Source of the DNA: Streptomyces xanthii
GTDB taxonomy: Bacteria > Actinomycetota > Actinomycetes > Streptomycetales > Streptomycetaceae
Assembly: GCF_014621695.1 (NCBI RefSeq)
Contig: NZ_CP061281.1
Location: 806,001-870,000, forward strand
DNA length: 64,000 nt
Direction: 5' to 3'
Shown here piece after piece: positions 11,885 through 18,201 of the stretch. The notes beneath the pieces are model-generated. The model had not been told where the DNA came from and searched no databases. It saw only the letters and a list, made by a program, of their open reading frames with translations. How positions within the stretch are numbered: the stretch's first letter is position 1; the number at the start of each line of letters is the position of its first letter. A program made the translations under genes and the position numbers.

Positions 11885-11997
11885 GCCGACTGTGTCGCGG
11901 GCGGCGGAGGAGGAGCGTTGCTTCCCGTCAGGGTTGTTCCCGTCGGTACGAGTGCCGTCGGCGGGGACCGGTATCGACCACGGGACGGGGAAGCATG

Positions 11998-13503
11998 ATG
12001 GCCAGTCACACACGGCGGGGTCTCCTCAAGGGCGCGGCGGTCGCCGCGGCGGGCGGCGCGGTCGGGAGCGGTCTCGGGACCGGCTTCTTCACGGCTGCGG
12101 CGCGGGGCAGCCACATGGCCGGGGGCACGAGGGAGGCGAGGCCGTTCCTGGAAGGTGCCTTCGCTCCGGTCACCGAGGAGTTGACCGCCTTCGACCTGGA
12201 GGTGACCGGCCGCATCCCCCGCGATCTCGACGGCCGCTACCTGCGCAACGGCCCCAACGCCCTGGGCCTGGAGGACGTCCGCGCCCACCACTGGATGCTC
12301 GGCGACGGAATGGTGCACGGGGTCCGGCTGCGCGACGGGCGCGCCGAGTGGTACCGCAACCGCTGGGTCCGCTCCTCCCGGGTGACGTCGAAGCTGGGCG
12401 AGCGGTACCCGGGACAGGTGCCGCCGGACGACTTCGCGTGCAACACCTACGTGATCCCGTACAAGGGCCGCGTCCTGGCGCTGCAGGAAGGCGGTCCCCT
12501 GCCGTACGAGCTGGACGGGGAGCTGGGGACGGTGCGCCCGTACGACTTCCGCTCCACGCTCGAGGGCGCGTTCACCGCGCACACCAAGTACGACGCGGCG
12601 GCGGACGAGTTGCACGCGATCGCGTACTACCCCACCTGGGACCACGTGCGGCACATCATGATCGACCGGACCGGCCGGGTGGCACGGACCACGCGGGTTC
12701 CCGTCACGGACGCGCCGATGATGCACGACTTCGCGCTCACCGAGAAGTACGTGGTGATCGTGGACGTGCCGATCACCTTCGACGCCGCCGCGGCGGAGGC
12801 GGGCGCGATCGTGCCGTATGTGTGGAACGACGGACACCCCATGCGCATCGGCCTGTTGCCCCGTGCCGGTGGCACCACGCGCTGGTTCGAGATCGACCCC
12901 GTGTACTACTCGCACACGCTCAACGCCTACGACCACGGCGACTCCGTGGTGATGGAGTACATCGGGTTCCCCGCGCCGTTCCACGCCGCCGGGCGCGGCA
13001 TGGGCGGGCCGTGCGCGACCGGGTCCCCGACGCTGGACCGCTGGACGATCGATCCGCGCGCGGGCCGGGTCCGCAGCAGTCGCCTCGACGACCGCCCGCA
13101 GGAGTTCCCCCGCATCAACGAATCCCTGGTCGCGCACCGGCACCGCTACGCCTACACCGCGAGCGCGGCCGAGATGTGGCGCGCGTACGAGACGGCCGAC
13201 GGGGTGCCGCCCGACGAGAAGTTCACCAACCATCTGATCAAGCACGACATGCTGCGCGGCAGCACGCAGCTGATCCGCTTCCCCGACGGCGCGGCGGTGA
13301 GCGAGCCGGTGTTCGTCCCGCGGCGCGGGGCCCGGGACGAGGACGACGGCTACGTCCTGTCGTACGTGAACGACCCGGGCCGGGGCGCGACCGACCTGGT
13401 GATCCTCTCGGCCCAGGACTTCGGCGGGCGCCCGCTGGCCCGGATCCACCTTCCCGGCCGGGTACCGCTGGGATTCCACGGCAGCTGGGTGGCGGACGCC
13501 TAG
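11998..13503 (+). CDS. Tat-exported carotenoid oxygenase family protein
   Basis: A 501-residue member of the carotenoid/lignostilbene cleavage dioxygenase family. The four iron-binding histidines are apparent: His195 (FTAHTKYD), His243 (MMHDFAL), His306 (SHTLNAYDHGD) and His494 (GFHGSW). The N terminus MASHTRRGLLKGAAVAAAGG is a twin-arginine signal, so the folded enzyme is probably exported. The second of two adjacent ATGs is used because GGGGA lies at better spacing. Likely substrates are carotenoids or stilbene-like aromatics. No carotenoid biosynthesis genes are nearby. Confidence 0.9.
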   Translation: MASHTRRGLLKGAAVAAAGGAVGSGLGTGFFTAAARGSHMAGGTREARPFLEGAFAPVTEELTAFDLEVTGRIPRDLDGRYLRNGPNALGLEDVRAHHWMLGDGMVHGVRLRDGRAEWYRNRWVRSSRVTSKLGERYPGQVPPDDFACNTYVIPYKGRVLALQEGGPLPYELDGELGTVRPYDFRSTLEGAFTAHTKYDAAADELHAIAYYPTWDHVRHIMIDRTGRVARTTRVPVTDAPMMHDFALTEKYVVIVDVPITFDAAAAEAGAIVPYVWNDGHPMRIGLLPRAGGTTRWFEIDPVYYSHTLNAYDHGDSVVMEYIGFPAPFHAAGRGMGGPCATGSPTLDRWTIDPRAGRVRSSRLDDRPQEFPRINESLVAHRHRYAYTASAAEMWRAYETADGVPPDEKFTNHLIKHDMLRGSTQLIRFPDGAAVSEPVFVPRRGARDEDDGYVLSYVNDPGRGATDLVILSAQDFGGRPLARIHLPGRVPLGFHGSWVADA

Positions 13504-13539: not shown

Positions 13540-14133
13540 TCAGGCGCCGCGCCAGATGTTGTCGAACGCGGCGTTCTCGACGGACCGGCGCTGCCGCTCC
13601 GCCTCCAGTTCCAGTTCGGCGCCGCCGACCGCGGCCAGCACCGTCACCACCTGGTCCGACAGGCCCGAGGCGTCGACCGCCGACTCGTCCCCCTGCCGCA
13701 GCGCGGCGACCAGGGCCTGGAGCACCGGCTCACCCGCCTCCCAGCGGGCGACGGCGACCTCACGCGCCGCCGACGCGAGGGTCTCGGGCGGGCCGGGCCT
13801 GAAGCGGTGCGGCTTCCTCGTGACCAGGCCCTCGGCCCGGAGCCCGGCCACGTACTCCTTGGCCAGCCCGTTTCCCCGACGCCACAGCCAGTCGTCGACC
13901 AGCTCGAACGGTTCCTCGCGCACCAGCGACGACACGGCCTGCCGCATCAGCTCGTCGTCCTGCGCGGGCGCGAGCCCCGGCACGATGCGCTCCTCTCGCA
14001 CGGCGGCAGCCTCCGCGCGCACGAGGTCGACGAGCTCCCCGCCGGCAAGAGCGAGCGACAGGGCGCCCTGGTCCGCGGGAACACCGTGCTCCCGGTCCAA
14101 GGAGATGAGCAGCAGGTCCCGTGCGGTGTTCAT
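13540..14133 (-). CDS. GPP34 (GOLPH3/VPS74-like) family protein
   Basis: A 197-residue protein of the GPP34 fold, known in eukaryotes for binding phosphatidylinositol-4-phosphate at the Golgi and common in Streptomyces with unknown role. Diagnostic features are MNTARDLLLISLDREHG, a basic mid-region WLWRRGNGLAKEYVAGL, a following VTRKPHRFRPG turn, and the helical AVGGAELELEAERQRRSVEN end. GGGAGCG precedes the ATG. It starts 179 bases from a divergent membrane metallophosphoesterase. Membrane phospholipid binding is a plausible role by family analogy only. Confidence 0.85.
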   Translation of the reverse strand: MNTARDLLLISLDREHGVPADQGALSLALAGGELVDLVRAEAAAVREERIVPGLAPAQDDELMRQAVSSLVREEPFELVDDWLWRRGNGLAKEYVAGLRAEGLVTRKPHRFRPGPPETLASAAREVAVARWEAGEPVLQALVAALRQGDESAVDASGLSDQVVTVLAAVGGAELELEAERQRRSVENAAFDNIWRGA

Positions 14134-14312
14134 GAGCGCTCCCTCTGACGGTGTCGGCCAGCGTACGAGGCCTCGCCCCGGATCGCTCCGGAGGCGCGGA
14201 CGGACGCGGCATCCTGCCGGGCTCCGACGGCAGCCGGAAACCTGGCCCCGGCGGCCGCCGGATACAGTGCGCGTCGGCAGCCCCGTCGCCCGGTTGCCCG
14301 AGGAGGGGAAGC

Positions 14313-15527
14313 GTGACCGACACCCACGAGAAGCGTTCCGTCGACAGCGCGGCGCGCGAGGCACGGCAAAGACGACTGCGCCGCCTGCTGGGCCTGCTCC
14401 CGCTGATCGCGCCCGTCCTGCTGTGGACCGTGCCCTGCTGGCTCCTGCTGTACGCCGGTCAGGGCTGGCCCGTCCCCGTCACGGCGGCCGGAACGGTCCT
14501 GTTCGCCCTCGGCCTGACCGGCATGCCGCTCGCGATGGTGCGCGGCCACGGCAAGCGGCAACAGGACCGGGCGGCGATCGTCGGGGACACTCTGCTGGGC
14601 ACGAGCTGGACGCTGTTCACGTGGTCCGTCCTGCTCGGCGTCCTGCTGCGCCTCGCCCTGAGCGTGGCCGGTGTCGGCGACGGCCAGGACCGGGCCCGGA
14701 TCGTCGCCTGGGCGACCCTCGGCACGGCCGCCGTACTCCTCGCCTGGGGATACGCCGAGGCCCGCCGGGTACCGCGGGTGCGCCGGCTCGACATCGAACT
14801 CCCGCGCCTGGGCGCCGGCTTGGACGGCACCCGTGTCGCCCTCATCACCGACACGCACTACGGGCCCCTGGACCGCGCCCGCTGGTCGGCCCGGGTCTGC
14901 GACACGGTGAACACCCTGGACGCCGACCTGGTCTGCCACACCGGCGACATCGCGGACGGCACCGCCGAGCGGCGCCGTGCCCAGGCCGCCCCGCTCGGCA
15001 CCGTACGGGCCACCCGTGCCCGGGTCTACGTCACCGGCAACCACGAGTACTACAGCGAGGCCCAGGGCTGGGTCGACCTCATGGACGAACTGGGCTGGGA
15101 GCCGCTGCGCAACCGCCATCTGCTCCTCGAGCGCGGCGGTGACACCCTCGTGGTCGCGGGCGTGGACGACGTCACCGCCGAGTCCTCCGGTCTGGCGGGC
15201 CACCGCGCCCATCTCGCCGGAGCGCTGGACGGCGCCGACCCCGAGCACCCGGTCCTGCTCCTGGCCCACCAGCCCAAGTTCGTCGACGAAGCCGCGGCCG
15301 GCGGCGTCGACCTCCAGCTGTCCGGCCACACCCACGGCGGGCAGATCTGGCCCTTCCACCACCTGGTCCGCATCGACCAGCCGGCCCTCGCCGGCCTCAG
15401 CCGCCACGGCGACCGCACCCTCCTCTACACCAGCCGCGGCACCGGCTTCTGGGGCCCGCCGTTCCGCATCTTCGCCCCCAGCGAGATCACCCTCCTCGTC
15501 CTGCGCTCCCCGCAGCCGACCGCCTGA
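14313..15527 (+). CDS. membrane-anchored metallophosphoesterase
   Basis: A 404-residue protein with four hydrophobic segments (about residues 24-50, 55-75, 90-115 and 127-147), then a calcineurin-type domain: ITDTHYGPLD, HTGDIADGT, VTGNHEYYSEAQGW, LLAHQPKF and LSGHTHGGQIWPF. The last motif and layout match the YkuE-like branch acting at the membrane, which includes enzymes on lipid-linked pyrophosphates such as UDP-diacylglucosamine relatives. AGGAGGGG precedes the GTG. It is convergent with the CdsA-like gene (29 bases between stops), so a shared phospholipid theme is possible but unproven. Confidence 0.85.
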   Translation: MTDTHEKRSVDSAAREARQRRLRRLLGLLPLIAPVLLWTVPCWLLLYAGQGWPVPVTAAGTVLFALGLTGMPLAMVRGHGKRQQDRAAIVGDTLLGTSWTLFTWSVLLGVLLRLALSVAGVGDGQDRARIVAWATLGTAAVLLAWGYAEARRVPRVRRLDIELPRLGAGLDGTRVALITDTHYGPLDRARWSARVCDTVNTLDADLVCHTGDIADGTAERRRAQAAPLGTVRATRARVYVTGNHEYYSEAQGWVDLMDELGWEPLRNRHLLLERGGDTLVVAGVDDVTAESSGLAGHRAHLAGALDGADPEHPVLLLAHQPKFVDEAAAGGVDLQLSGHTHGGQIWPFHHLVRIDQPALAGLSRHGDRTLLYTSRGTGFWGPPFRIFAPSEITLLVLRSPQPTA

Positions 15528-15556: not shown

Positions 15557-16360
15557 TCAGCTCAGCACCAGCAGCACCGCCAGGGCGACGAGGAGGGAGT
15601 CGATCCGGTCGAGGATGCCGCCGGAGCCGGCCAGCCACCGGCCGGCGTCCTTGGCGCGCGCGCCCCGCTTGACCATCGACTCCAGCAGGTCCCCGAGGGG
15701 GCCGCCGACCGCGACGGCCACCGCCGTCTGCCACGTCAGGCAGGACAGCACGGCCAGCGTGAGCAGACCGGCCGCGGCCCCGGCCAGCGTGCCGCTCCAC
15801 CGTTTGGCGGGCGACAGCGGGGAGAGCCGGGGTCCGCCGAAGCGGGGGCCCGCCGCATAGGCGACGATGTCGGCGATCGACACCGCCACGAACAGGACGA
15901 GGCCGACGGCGCCCGAGGACACGAGCCCGGCCAGGACCCCCAGCCACACGAGCCCCAGCAGACCCGCTCCCAGGCGGCGCAGCCCGTGCTCCGCGTCACC
16001 CGAGAACAGCGGCACCCCGGCGATCGCCAAGGCCCCGGCGGCCGCCACGCGGATCACCTCCCCGGGGGCCAGCCAGGCGGTGACCACAAGGGCGACGAGC
16101 GCCGCGCCCAATACCGCCCGGTCGATCGGGCCGAGCCGCAGCAGCCCGCCGAACTCCGCCACCGCGATCACGCCCACCACGGACGCGAGCACCGCGATCC
16201 CCGGCGGGCCGAGCCAGAACGCGGCGGTCACCAGGGGCACTCCGAGCGCCCACACGCACCAGCGGACCATCAGTTCGCGGCGCCGGGTCGCCGCCACCGC
16301 GACGCCTCCGGCCGCCAGGGCCCCGCCGAGATAGGGCACGAGACCGGCGACCGTCGTCAC
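15557..16360 (-). CDS. CdsA-like phosphatidate cytidylyltransferase
   Basis: A 267-residue polytopic membrane protein with about eight hydrophobic spans. The C-terminal CDP-diglyceride synthetase signature is present as KRxxxxKDxxxxLAGSGGxxDR, but AGSGG replaces the usual PGHGG. The family makes CDP-diacylglycerol from CTP and phosphatidic acid at the membrane. The GTG start overlaps the stop of the upstream fusion gene as GTGA, so translation is coupled. Most streptomycetes also carry a housekeeping cdsA; this copy, tied to an unusual fusion enzyme, may serve a special lipid. That link is inference. Confidence 0.82.
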   Translation of the reverse strand: MTTVAGLVPYLGGALAAGGVAVAATRRRELMVRWCVWALGVPLVTAAFWLGPPGIAVLASVVGVIAVAEFGGLLRLGPIDRAVLGAALVALVVTAWLAPGEVIRVAAAGALAIAGVPLFSGDAEHGLRRLGAGLLGLVWLGVLAGLVSSGAVGLVLFVAVSIADIVAYAAGPRFGGPRLSPLSPAKRWSGTLAGAAAGLLTLAVLSCLTWQTAVAVAVGGPLGDLLESMVKRGARAKDAGRWLAGSGGILDRIDSLLVALAVLLVLS

Positions 16361-18120
16361 CGGGAGACCGTCCCCGACGCGCCCGACACCACGACGGCCG
16401 GTGCGCGCAGCGCGTCCAGGGCGCTGCGGCAGGCCGCCACGATCCGCGCGTTCTCCGCGGTGTCGCGGACGGCGATCCGGACGGTCCGCCCCTCGTACGC
16501 CGGGGACATCGGCGACAGGTCGCGCAGGAACACGTCGTGCCGCCGGCACTCCCGCACCAGCTGCGCCGCGCTCGGCCCGTGAGGCGGCAGGGTCACCGTG
16601 AGGAAGTTCGCCACCCCCTCGTCGACCGCGGAGAAGCCGTCCAACTCACCAAGGTCGTGCGCCAGTTGGCGGCGCAACTCGTGGGTGCGGGCCCAGCGCT
16701 CCGCGTAGTGGCCGGGGTCGCGCAGGGCCGTCACCGCGGCCAGCTGGGCCGGCAGGCTCACGGGCCACGGCGGCGTCCAGCGGCGCAGCTCGCCGGCGGT
16801 CTCCGGACAGGCGACCAGATAGGCGGCTCGCATCCCCGACAGGGCGTACATCTTCGACAGCGAGGTGCAGACGACGACCCGGGCGTCGGCCGAGGCCAGT
16901 CCGGCCAGCGAGTCCGCCGGATCGACGTAGCCCAGGTAGGCCTCGTCGATCCACCAGCGGGTCCGGTCGGGCGAGGCCTCGATCACCGCGCGCAATGCGT
17001 CGGCCGGGGCGTGGCGGCCGGTCGGGTTGTTCGGGTTGACGACGACCACGAGGTCGTACCGTCCGTCGCGGGTCGCGGCGGCGAGCCGGGCCGGGTCGAC
17101 CAGCCAGCCGTCCTCCCGGCGCAGCTGGAGCCGGTCGACCTGGCAGCCGATCACCCGCTCGGTGACATGGGCGTACTCCCCGTAGCCCGGGTCGAGGAGG
17201 AGCACCCGGCTCGCCGGGGTCAGCCAGCGGCCGAACGCGCGGAAGATCAGATCGGACGAGCCCGCCCCGACGACCAGTGACTCCACCGGCAGCCCGCGGA
17301 CCCGGGCGAGCTCCGCGAGCAGTCCTTCCGCGCCGGTGGGCGGCGAGGTCCGGGCCGACCACCCCGGGTCCTCCGACAGGACGGCGCGGACCGCCGGAGA
17401 GGGCGGGAACCAGGCGTCCAGCACGTCCGCGGCGACCACCTCGTGACGGCGGTTCAGGGTCCGGAAGTCGGTGCCGATCGCCGAGAAGAACGCCCCGCCG
17501 TGCTCGCAGCCGTCCGCACGCGGTGCGAAGGGCATGTCGAGCCGCCAGTCGAGGTCCGTCCGCAGCCGCTCCAGGATCCGGCCGTGGCGCTGCGCGACCG
17601 TCCTCGTCAGCTCGGCCACGGACCCGCTGAGGACCTCGAACGAGACGGCTCCCGAGCGGATGGTGCGTCCCATCGGGCGCAGCCCGGCGGCGAGATACAT
17701 GTCGAGCAGCTCCGTGCGTCCCATCGCCACCACCCGGCGGCCGCCCCGTGCGGCGGCCCAGCGCAGCGCCGCGTACATGAGCAGCGGGGCCGCCGCGGTC
17801 GACCGCCACCTCTGCTCGACGGTCAGCACCCGGATCTCGAACGGTGCCTCATCGGTCAGGACCGGCAGCTCCTCGCGCGTCAGGTACTTGTCGAGGGAGT
17901 AGCGGCCGACCCACGGCGGGGTGAGGCTGACGAAGCCGATCCGTCTCTCGCCGCGCGCGGCCACGAGATAGACGTTGTCACCGTCGAGCCCGTCGCTCAG
18001 TCTTCCCGACGGGTCCACCGGATGCTGACCGAGTTCCTCCGCGTACACGCGGTGGCGCAGCTCGTGGATCCAGTCGAGGTCGCCAGGCGTGGCCGTGCGC
18101 ACCTGCAGGGCGTGTTCCAT
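16357..18120 (-). CDS. fusion: GNAT/N-acyl-amino-acid-synthase-like domain + PLP aminotransferase (HisC/CobD-like)
   Basis: A 587-residue two-domain protein. Residues 1-165 look like a GNAT or FeeM/LuxI-type acyltransferase: LRHRVYAEELGQ at 21-32, acidic GLDGDNVYLVAA at 44-55, FEIRVLTVEQRWRSTAAAP at 94-112. Residues 225-575 are a fold-type I aminotransferase: VVGAGSSDLIFRAF (283-296), NPNNPTGR (362-369), IDEAYLGYVD (391-400), the PLP lysine Lys423 in SLSKMYALSG and Arg548 in VRIAVRD. AGGGGGG precedes the ATG. A perfect 18-base palindrome lies 64 bases upstream. The gene is coupled to the CdsA-like gene by GTGA. Each domain keeps its key residues, so both may be active; the product is unknown. 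Confidence 0.85.
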   Translation of the reverse strand: MEHALQVRTATPGDLDWIHELRHRVYAEELGQHPVDPSGRLSDGLDGDNVYLVAARGERRIGFVSLTPPWVGRYSLDKYLTREELPVLTDEAPFEIRVLTVEQRWRSTAAAPLLMYAALRWAAARGGRRVVAMGRTELLDMYLAAGLRPMGRTIRSGAVSFEVLSGSVAELTRTVAQRHGRILERLRTDLDWRLDMPFAPRADGCEHGGAFFSAIGTDFRTLNRRHEVVAADVLDAWFPPSPAVRAVLSEDPGWSARTSPPTGAEGLLAELARVRGLPVESLVVGAGSSDLIFRAFGRWLTPASRVLLLDPGYGEYAHVTERVIGCQVDRLQLRREDGWLVDPARLAAATRDGRYDLVVVVNPNNPTGRHAPADALRAVIEASPDRTRWWIDEAYLGYVDPADSLAGLASADARVVVCTSLSKMYALSGMRAAYLVACPETAGELRRWTPPWPVSLPAQLAAVTALRDPGHYAERWARTHELRRQLAHDLGELDGFSAVDEGVANFLTVTLPPHGPSAAQLVRECRRHDVFLRDLSPMSPAYEGRTVRIAVRDTAENARIVAACRSALDALRAPAVVVSGASGTVSR

Positions 18121-18183
18121 GTGTGTCCCCCCTGAGACGGTCTTGCTTTCGGCCTCAGCATGGAGGAGTCCGGCGGGCGGCAC

Positions 18184-18201
18184 CTGAGTACGCGTACTCA
18201 G
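18184..18201. promoter_or_regulatory. 18-base perfect palindrome upstream of the fusion gene
   Basis: CTGAGTACGCGTACTCAG is fully self-complementary. It is 64-81 bases upstream of the fusion gene's ATG, at a usual operator distance. The adjacent +-strand membrane-protein gene starts 192 bases away. The cognate regulator is not evident in the window. Confidence 0.55.

Follow-up and report, generated by a model that had tools for sequence, protein, structure and literature searches.

In a 64,000-nucleotide (nt) stretch of Streptomyces xanthii DNA (NZ_CP061281.1, positions 806,001 to 870,000; hereafter the window), a gene on the minus strand joins a FeeM/LuxI-like GNAT N-acyl synthase domain to a CobD-like pyridoxal phosphate (PLP) domain and is coupled to a gene for a CdsA-like cytidylyltransferase. 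We propose, at a probability of roughly 40%, that the two genes constitute a portable pathway in which a phosphorylated amino-alcohol is made, N-acylated and activated with cytidine triphosphate (CTP) for an amide-linked phospholipid. We are considerably more confident that the two genes form a dedicated unit of N-acyl lipid metabolism than of any single chemical route. The features concerned are:

16357..18120, minus strand: fusion gene (587 amino acids), FeeM/LuxI-like GNAT N-acyl synthase domain plus CobD-like PLP domain
17521..18120, minus strand: GNAT domain of the acyl-homoserine-lactone (AHL) synthase or FeeM type, residues 1-200
17494..17502, minus strand: HGG motif, residues 207-209, common to CobD and invariant in 18 sequences
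16411..17445, minus strand: fold-type-I PLP domain, residues 226-570, with NPNNPTG, D392, K423, R431, W452 and R548-x-A-x-R552
15557..16360, minus strand: CdsA-like membrane CTP:lipid-phosphate cytidylyltransferase (267 amino acids), PF01148 at 109.4 bits (cut-off 24), linked to the fusion in 78 of 85 loci
18127..18133, minus strand: ribosome-binding site AGGGGGG, read from the sequence, 6 nt before the fusion ATG at 18120
18185..18200, no strand: palindrome TGAGTACGCGTACTCA, ~81 nt upstream of the fusion ATG, a putative operator or promoter element

A fusion gene and its CdsA-like partner

A preliminary description of this DNA had recognised a 587-residue protein at 16357..18120 and had considered neither of its domains degenerate. 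The plus-strand translation of this interval is broken by an internal stop, which places the open reading frame on the minus strand, and the PLP-site residues named in that description, Lys423, NPNNPTGR (residues 362-369) and Arg548, were found where it had put them. In an alignment of the window protein with 17 relatives that are 50-93% identical to it, Lys423 and Arg548 are invariant, and NPNNPTG (one position variable), D392, K423, R431 and R548 are kept among the fusion proteins. A Pfam scan placed Aminotran_1_2 at residues 251-562 with 120.9 bits (cut-off 19.7). The median ratio of nonsynonymous to synonymous substitution (dN/dS) over 84 pairs was 0.23 for the GNAT domain, 0.22 for the PLP domain and 0.26 for the CdsA-like protein, with 0.28 for the linker (82 pairs). 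The GNAT domain, the PLP domain and the CdsA-like partner are thus all under purifying selection and, given the first two medians, neither fusion domain is decaying. The order sample comprised 292 further genomes; as 28 of them (~10%) hold the fusion, whole or partial, it does not reflect chance or misassembly.

The neighbourhood survey that the preliminary description had called for brought out a partner gene it had overlooked. In the window, the start of the CdsA-like gene overlaps the fusion stop by 4 nt (GTGA). Across 85 loci (80 from genome contigs and 5 from plasmids), a CdsA-like gene directly follows the fusion, within 400 nt, in 78, and 73 of these preserve the 4-nt overlap exactly (63 GTGA, 10 ATGA). 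One further locus (L096) runs out at a contig end with the apparent start of a CdsA-like gene in view. The other six (L039, L103, L118, L127, L128 and L134) have no CdsA-like gene within 400 nt, L128 having only 262 nt left, and no cassette-type CdsA was found elsewhere in the genomes or record behind them. The L118 genome holds one 46% CdsA paralogue and one 37% match, the L039 plasmid record has no CdsA match, and the remaining four genomes have one match each, at 40-43% identity, which we took as housekeeping. The identities of the fusion and CdsA-like proteins to their window counterparts correlate at 0.97 over 85 loci, here the 78 paired loci plus seven further ones from the genome search (L041-L047).

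The cassette protein shares PF01148 and the KR-x4-KD and GG-xx-DR-x-D signatures with CdsA and YnbB, but differs from CdsA at GHGG, a motif of the C-terminal signature (PROSITE PS01315). Among the 78 cassette proteins this position reads GSGG in 71, GAGG in five and GTGG in one (one was not readable), while all eight CdsA proteins taken as housekeeping have GHGG; the PS01315 pattern is absent from the window protein. The latter also scored 54.8 bits against the NF008635 equivalog, under its cut-off of 385 bits. The source genome has its own GHGG-type CdsA, yet the closest relative of the cassette protein in that genome is a second paralogue, 49% identical and with GFGG. The 4-nt overlap, the near-perfect co-divergence and the altered GHGG together suggest a dedicated enzyme and a substrate shared with the fusion.

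The second paralogue (L157:8917-11716; G000:C1, ~2.26 Mb) adjoins genes for a CDP-alcohol phosphotransferase and a PlsC-like acyltransferase, a candidate for a separate unusual-phospholipid cluster in the same genome. By analogy, its arrangement may recall E. coli ynbAB, YnbB being a described CdsA paralogue (PMC7018664).

Apart from the CdsA-like gene, recurring neighbours were sparse. Clustering with a coding filter gave no other family in more than 13 of the 85 loci, with a filter so poor that it detected the CdsA-like gene in only 37, and unfiltered six-frame clustering within 6 kb gave none in more than 17. A larger gene cluster was rejected on these counts, and in the lack of further widespread neighbours the pair seems to be enough by itself.

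The two domains of the fusion protein

The N-terminal part had been described as a GNAT or FeeM/LuxI-like domain, and structure prediction supports this. Modelled alone, residues 1-200 adopt a GNAT fold with a predicted local distance difference test (pLDDT) score of 85, and their best fold matches include AHL synthases and FeeM. The AHL synthases head both fold lists, with FeeM near the top in VIA; generic GNATs also rank high, and the carrier-protein-dependent N-acyltransferase SbzI is listed too. The structure comparison also addressed whether the N-terminal part is a mere extension of the aminotransferase; matching GNAT folds as it does, it is not, and a plain aminotransferase with such an extension is ruled out. 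FeeM was matched at E<=0.1 by all 37 members of the fusion family examined, none of which matched an autoinducer-synthase Pfam family at that threshold, and no AHL synthase was among six PDB profile matches at E<=5. The window protein scored 21.5 (in the Pfam scan) and 24.0 bits against FeeM (PF21926), under the gathering score of 27 bits, with Acetyltransf_1 at its cut-off (20.7 bits); the most divergent homologue (L138) stands above the cut-offs of both FeeM (36.6 bits) and Acetyltransf_5 (25.0 bits). The fold is thus that of FeeM and the LuxI-type synthases, but the window domain differs from them in being fused to a PLP domain, coupled to a CdsA-like gene and below the FeeM cut-off. Long-chain, acyl carrier protein (ACP)-dependent N-acylation is a FeeM trait that the fusion may share. 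Among 394 genomes of the class, with eight candidates scored per genome, no stand-alone GNAT relatives were found at E<=1e-4 beyond the fusion and its fragments, and in a sample of 396 genomes from the phylum GNAT-domain matches occurred only in G000 and G008.

Among solved structures, CobD is the closest to the PLP domain in sequence (E 8e-28 by sequence, 4.7e-33 by profile). Foldseek with the full-length model returned a HisC structure first and CobD next, a ranking from a low-confidence model in a search dominated by the PLP domain, whose pLDDT is low in places. When motifs were aligned across three fusions, three CobD-type proteins and two HisC, HGG, Trp452 (before V/I-S/N) and R552, the second arginine of R-x-A-x-R, proved common to the fusions and the CobD-type group. 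The tryptophan and the second arginine are missing from both HisC, one of which has NGG near its start, and the source genome's own CobC has HHG for HGG. The arginine pair also occurs in SMUL_1544, which ranks high in the matches and is titled a decarboxylase in the PDB. The preliminary description had seen here a complete HisC/CobD-like aminotransferase. Complete and intact it is, yet it lies nearer CobD than HisC and falls under both family cut-offs. We read it as a complete fold-type-I domain distant from both and leaning to CobD, which probably works like a CobD/HisC-type enzyme on a small, phosphorylated substrate; it is the CobD-type residues that point to the phosphate. As for the reaction, the same residues lean towards decarboxylation.

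A proposed N-acyl lipid pathway and its alternatives

In the pathway that we favour, the CobD-like domain would first make a small phosphorylated amino-alcohol, either by decarboxylation of O-phosphoserine/threonine to phosphoethanolamine or aminopropanol phosphate, or by amination of dihydroxyacetone phosphate to serinol phosphate. The FeeM/LuxI-like domain would then N-acylate the amine from acyl-ACP or acyl-coenzyme A, giving an N-acyl amino-alcohol phosphate that can be seen as an amide analogue of lysophosphatidate. Next, perhaps after O-acylation by the host, the dedicated CdsA paralogue would activate this lipid phosphate with CTP, and housekeeping CDP-alcohol phosphotransferases would convert the resulting CDP-lipid to an amide-linked phospholipid. 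The substrates, the direction of the pathway and its end product are all what we infer. The preliminary description had anticipated an N-acylated amine or amino acid, perhaps a signal or lipid precursor. An N-acylated amine does appear likely and the pair reads as a lipid module; the CdsA-like partner, however, points to a two-gene unit with a phosphorylated product rather than a free signal.

There are precedents for parts of this scheme. A Campylobacter capsule pathway includes Cj1436, which decarboxylates phosphoserine, and Cj1437, which transaminates dihydroxyacetone phosphate to serinol phosphate (PMC11800397); the PLP domain of the fusion is likened to both from that description. RtxA of Bradyrhizobium elkanii likewise aminates dihydroxyacetone phosphate and likewise has that aminotransferase domain fused to a second enzyme, one resembling O-acetylhomoserine sulfhydrolase, whereas the other domain of the fusion is acyltransferase-like (PMC3222319). 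The OlsB/OlsA and GlsB/GlsA pathways for ornithine, glycine and glutamine aminolipids also use two genes, with N-acylation first and a second enzyme completing the membrane lipid; the sections seen make no mention of a PLP domain and describe the second gene as encoding an O-acyltransferase, where that of the cassette encodes a cytidylyltransferase (PMC11631085).

Several observations weigh against this scheme. The fusion shares its PLP site, HGG, Trp452 and RxAxR with CobD, but reached 184.2 bits on the CobD model (TIGR01140), under the equivalog cut-off of 290.55 bits; two true CobD proteins scored 330 and 343 bits, and two true HisC, at 172 and 188 bits, came near the fusion. The CobD motifs SxNxNP and YPD are replaced by DAWFPP and SPPT, the former being departed from also by the source genome's own CobC. 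With two motifs lost and a middling CobD score, the CobD reaction should not simply be transferred to the fusion. No cobalamin genes were seen in the annotated fusion neighbourhoods that were inspected. On the HisC model (TIGR01141; equivalog cut-off 276.55 bits) the fusion scored 159.1 bits, against 288 and 294 bits for the two true HisC. The domain belongs to neither family. In the scheme's favour, a housekeeping HisC or CobD is excluded by the scores below both cut-offs together with the host's own HisC and CobC, each above a family cut-off. Contrary to the scheme, in six of the 85 loci the fusion stands without a CdsA-like gene behind it.

Those six loci would suit a fusion that makes a free N-acyl amine or N-acyl amino acid, a signal or surfactant, with the CdsA paralogue only raising the supply of CDP-diacylglycerol or independently making a phosphatidyl headgroup lipid. 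FeeM and the AHL synthases, known families, make free N-acyl products. N-acyl serinols from the gut are also on record, in a review. We nevertheless consider a free product unlikely, if the strongest of the competitors, in view of the 4-nt overlap in 73 of 78 loci, the near-perfect co-divergence and the altered GHGG.

The breadth of the GNAT fold, the high rank of generic GNATs and the listing of SbzI, a carrier-protein-dependent N-acyltransferase, would also suit a transaminase and N-acetyltransferase acting on a small metabolite or antibiotic, in tailoring or self-protection and with no fatty acyl chain, and some neighbourhoods are secondary-metabolite-like. This seems rather improbable, as AHL synthases top both fold lists with FeeM close in VIA, the gene that mostly accompanies the fusion encodes a membrane lipid enzyme, no biosynthetic neighbour is widely conserved and one plasmid context lacks a biosynthetic cluster altogether. 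Less probable again is a transamination of a 2-keto acid by the PLP domain, yielding an unusual amino acid whose N-acylation would give an aminolipid resembling ornithine lipid. Aminolipid pathways of two genes have a precedent in olsB/olsA (PMC11631085), but the second gene should then encode a PlsC-like O-acyltransferase and not CdsA, and the CobD-type residues favour a substrate that carries phosphate. A standard HisC or CobD whose N-terminal extension has no meaning, or an error of assembly or frame, would agree with the public annotation 'histidinol-phosphate transaminase' and is practically refuted for a domain that folds alone as a GNAT (pLDDT 85), is kept in dozens of species at a dN/dS of 0.23 and belongs to a protein scoring far under the HisC and CobD cut-offs in a genome with its own HisC and CobC.

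Distribution, control and annotation of the cassette

Among the 28 genomes from the order sample, two hold fragments (G038 and G249) and a third match starts at residue 53, with residues 1-59 found as a separate piece (G039). In G161 (L035/L032) the fusion is encoded in two overlapping frames that part near residue 172-177, through a frameshift or natural fission. The class sample added eight full-length copies outside the genus, in three families; a single TGA in L044 and L047 is the natural stop. Among the best 80 of 322 listed matches, the named relatives that are 87-92% identical come from Streptomyces except for one Actinacidiphila, and a copy from Actinorhabdospora filicis, 85% identical, is nearer the window than many Streptomyces copies at 70-78%. 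This last relationship suggests, from sequence similarity, horizontal transfer of the pair. The pair occurs on chromosomes and plasmids: on Streptomyces plasmids it lies beside parAB and unrelated genes, with no biosynthetic cluster; other copies are near glycosyltransferase genes or an IS5 transposase; and about ten loci (L081, L082, L085, L090, L098-L100 and others) have one chromosomal neighbourhood in common. The pair is evidently also lost by deletion, as G609 holds a remnant (L143:7518-7757) in which the GNAT N-terminus is joined straight to the CdsA C-terminus, where G400, of the same genus, keeps it intact. A role in anti-phage defence was considered and dropped, PADLOC having given no match.

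In the window itself, a calcineurin-like phosphoesterase gene (14151-15527, plus strand) converges on the CdsA-like gene and is not among the recurring neighbours. The window also holds genes for a GPP34 (Golgi phosphoprotein 3-like) domain protein (13540-14364, minus strand) and a carotenoid oxygenase-type protein (11959-13500, plus strand; RPE65 family, 365.6 bits) with an apparent twin-arginine signal, read by eye.

Upstream of the fusion, TGAGTACGCGTACTCA is a perfect palindrome, for which 0.01 occurrences would be expected in the window with one mismatch allowed. Its 14-nt form, GAGTA-N4-TACTC, was found within 300 nt upstream in 68 of the 82 loci with enough sequence, at an actual distance of 65-107 nt, and not once in the 1.64 Mb flanking these loci. 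Allowing one mismatch, the count rose to 78 of 82, compared with 4 of 1640 mononucleotide shuffles, but of the ten sites with one mismatch seven are farther out, at 148-250 nt. The palindrome was not found at four copies from other genera nor at the G609 remnant. A looser pattern has 6-13 copies in each of 12 whole Streptomyces genomes, whether or not they hold the cassette (its reversed control has 0-6), and a copy lies in the accE-maf interval, gene names being read from translations, in all four genomes examined, once with a mismatch. A small open reading frame is close to the accE-maf copy, clear in two of the four. Given these copies elsewhere, the cassette may use a core regulator through the palindrome, which offers a handle on its control.

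The preliminary description knew of no named pathway for this pairing of acyltransferase and PLP chemistry, and asked whether homologues carry a proven function. Of eight near-full-length plasmid matches, six are annotated, each time as 'histidinol-phosphate transaminase' and without a demonstrated function; in NZ_CP139046.1, NZ_CP108277.1 and NZ_CP108851.1 the label comes with a histidine-biosynthesis Gene Ontology term, which is probably a misannotation. In their 2017 work on N-acyl serinols, Cohen and colleagues are said to have dealt with a serinol synthase that may include an aminotransferase domain. Titles and abstract openings, mostly from outside subscription journals, mentioned neither a named pathway for a GNAT/FeeM and PLP pairing nor the combination of a FeeM-like domain, a CobD-like domain and a variant CdsA.

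Each part comes from a known family; the novelty lies in the combination, and the prospect of a new lipid class is a real one. Apart from sphingolipids, amide-linked phosphate lipids are uncommon. It is a tentative and somewhat doubtful proposal that the cassette, with its own CDP-lipid synthase, makes bacterial phospholipids of a new class, which would carry a fatty amide on an amino-alcohol phosphate in place of the glycerol ester, and that it is a self-sufficient unit that has spread among actinomycetes with its own operator. A free N-acyl amine, should that prove to be the product, would still be an unassigned actinomycete metabolite. If the favoured pathway is right, a two-gene cassette builds and activates an amide-linked phosphate lipid, which would explain a pair that public Streptomyces records mislabel as histidine biosynthesis.

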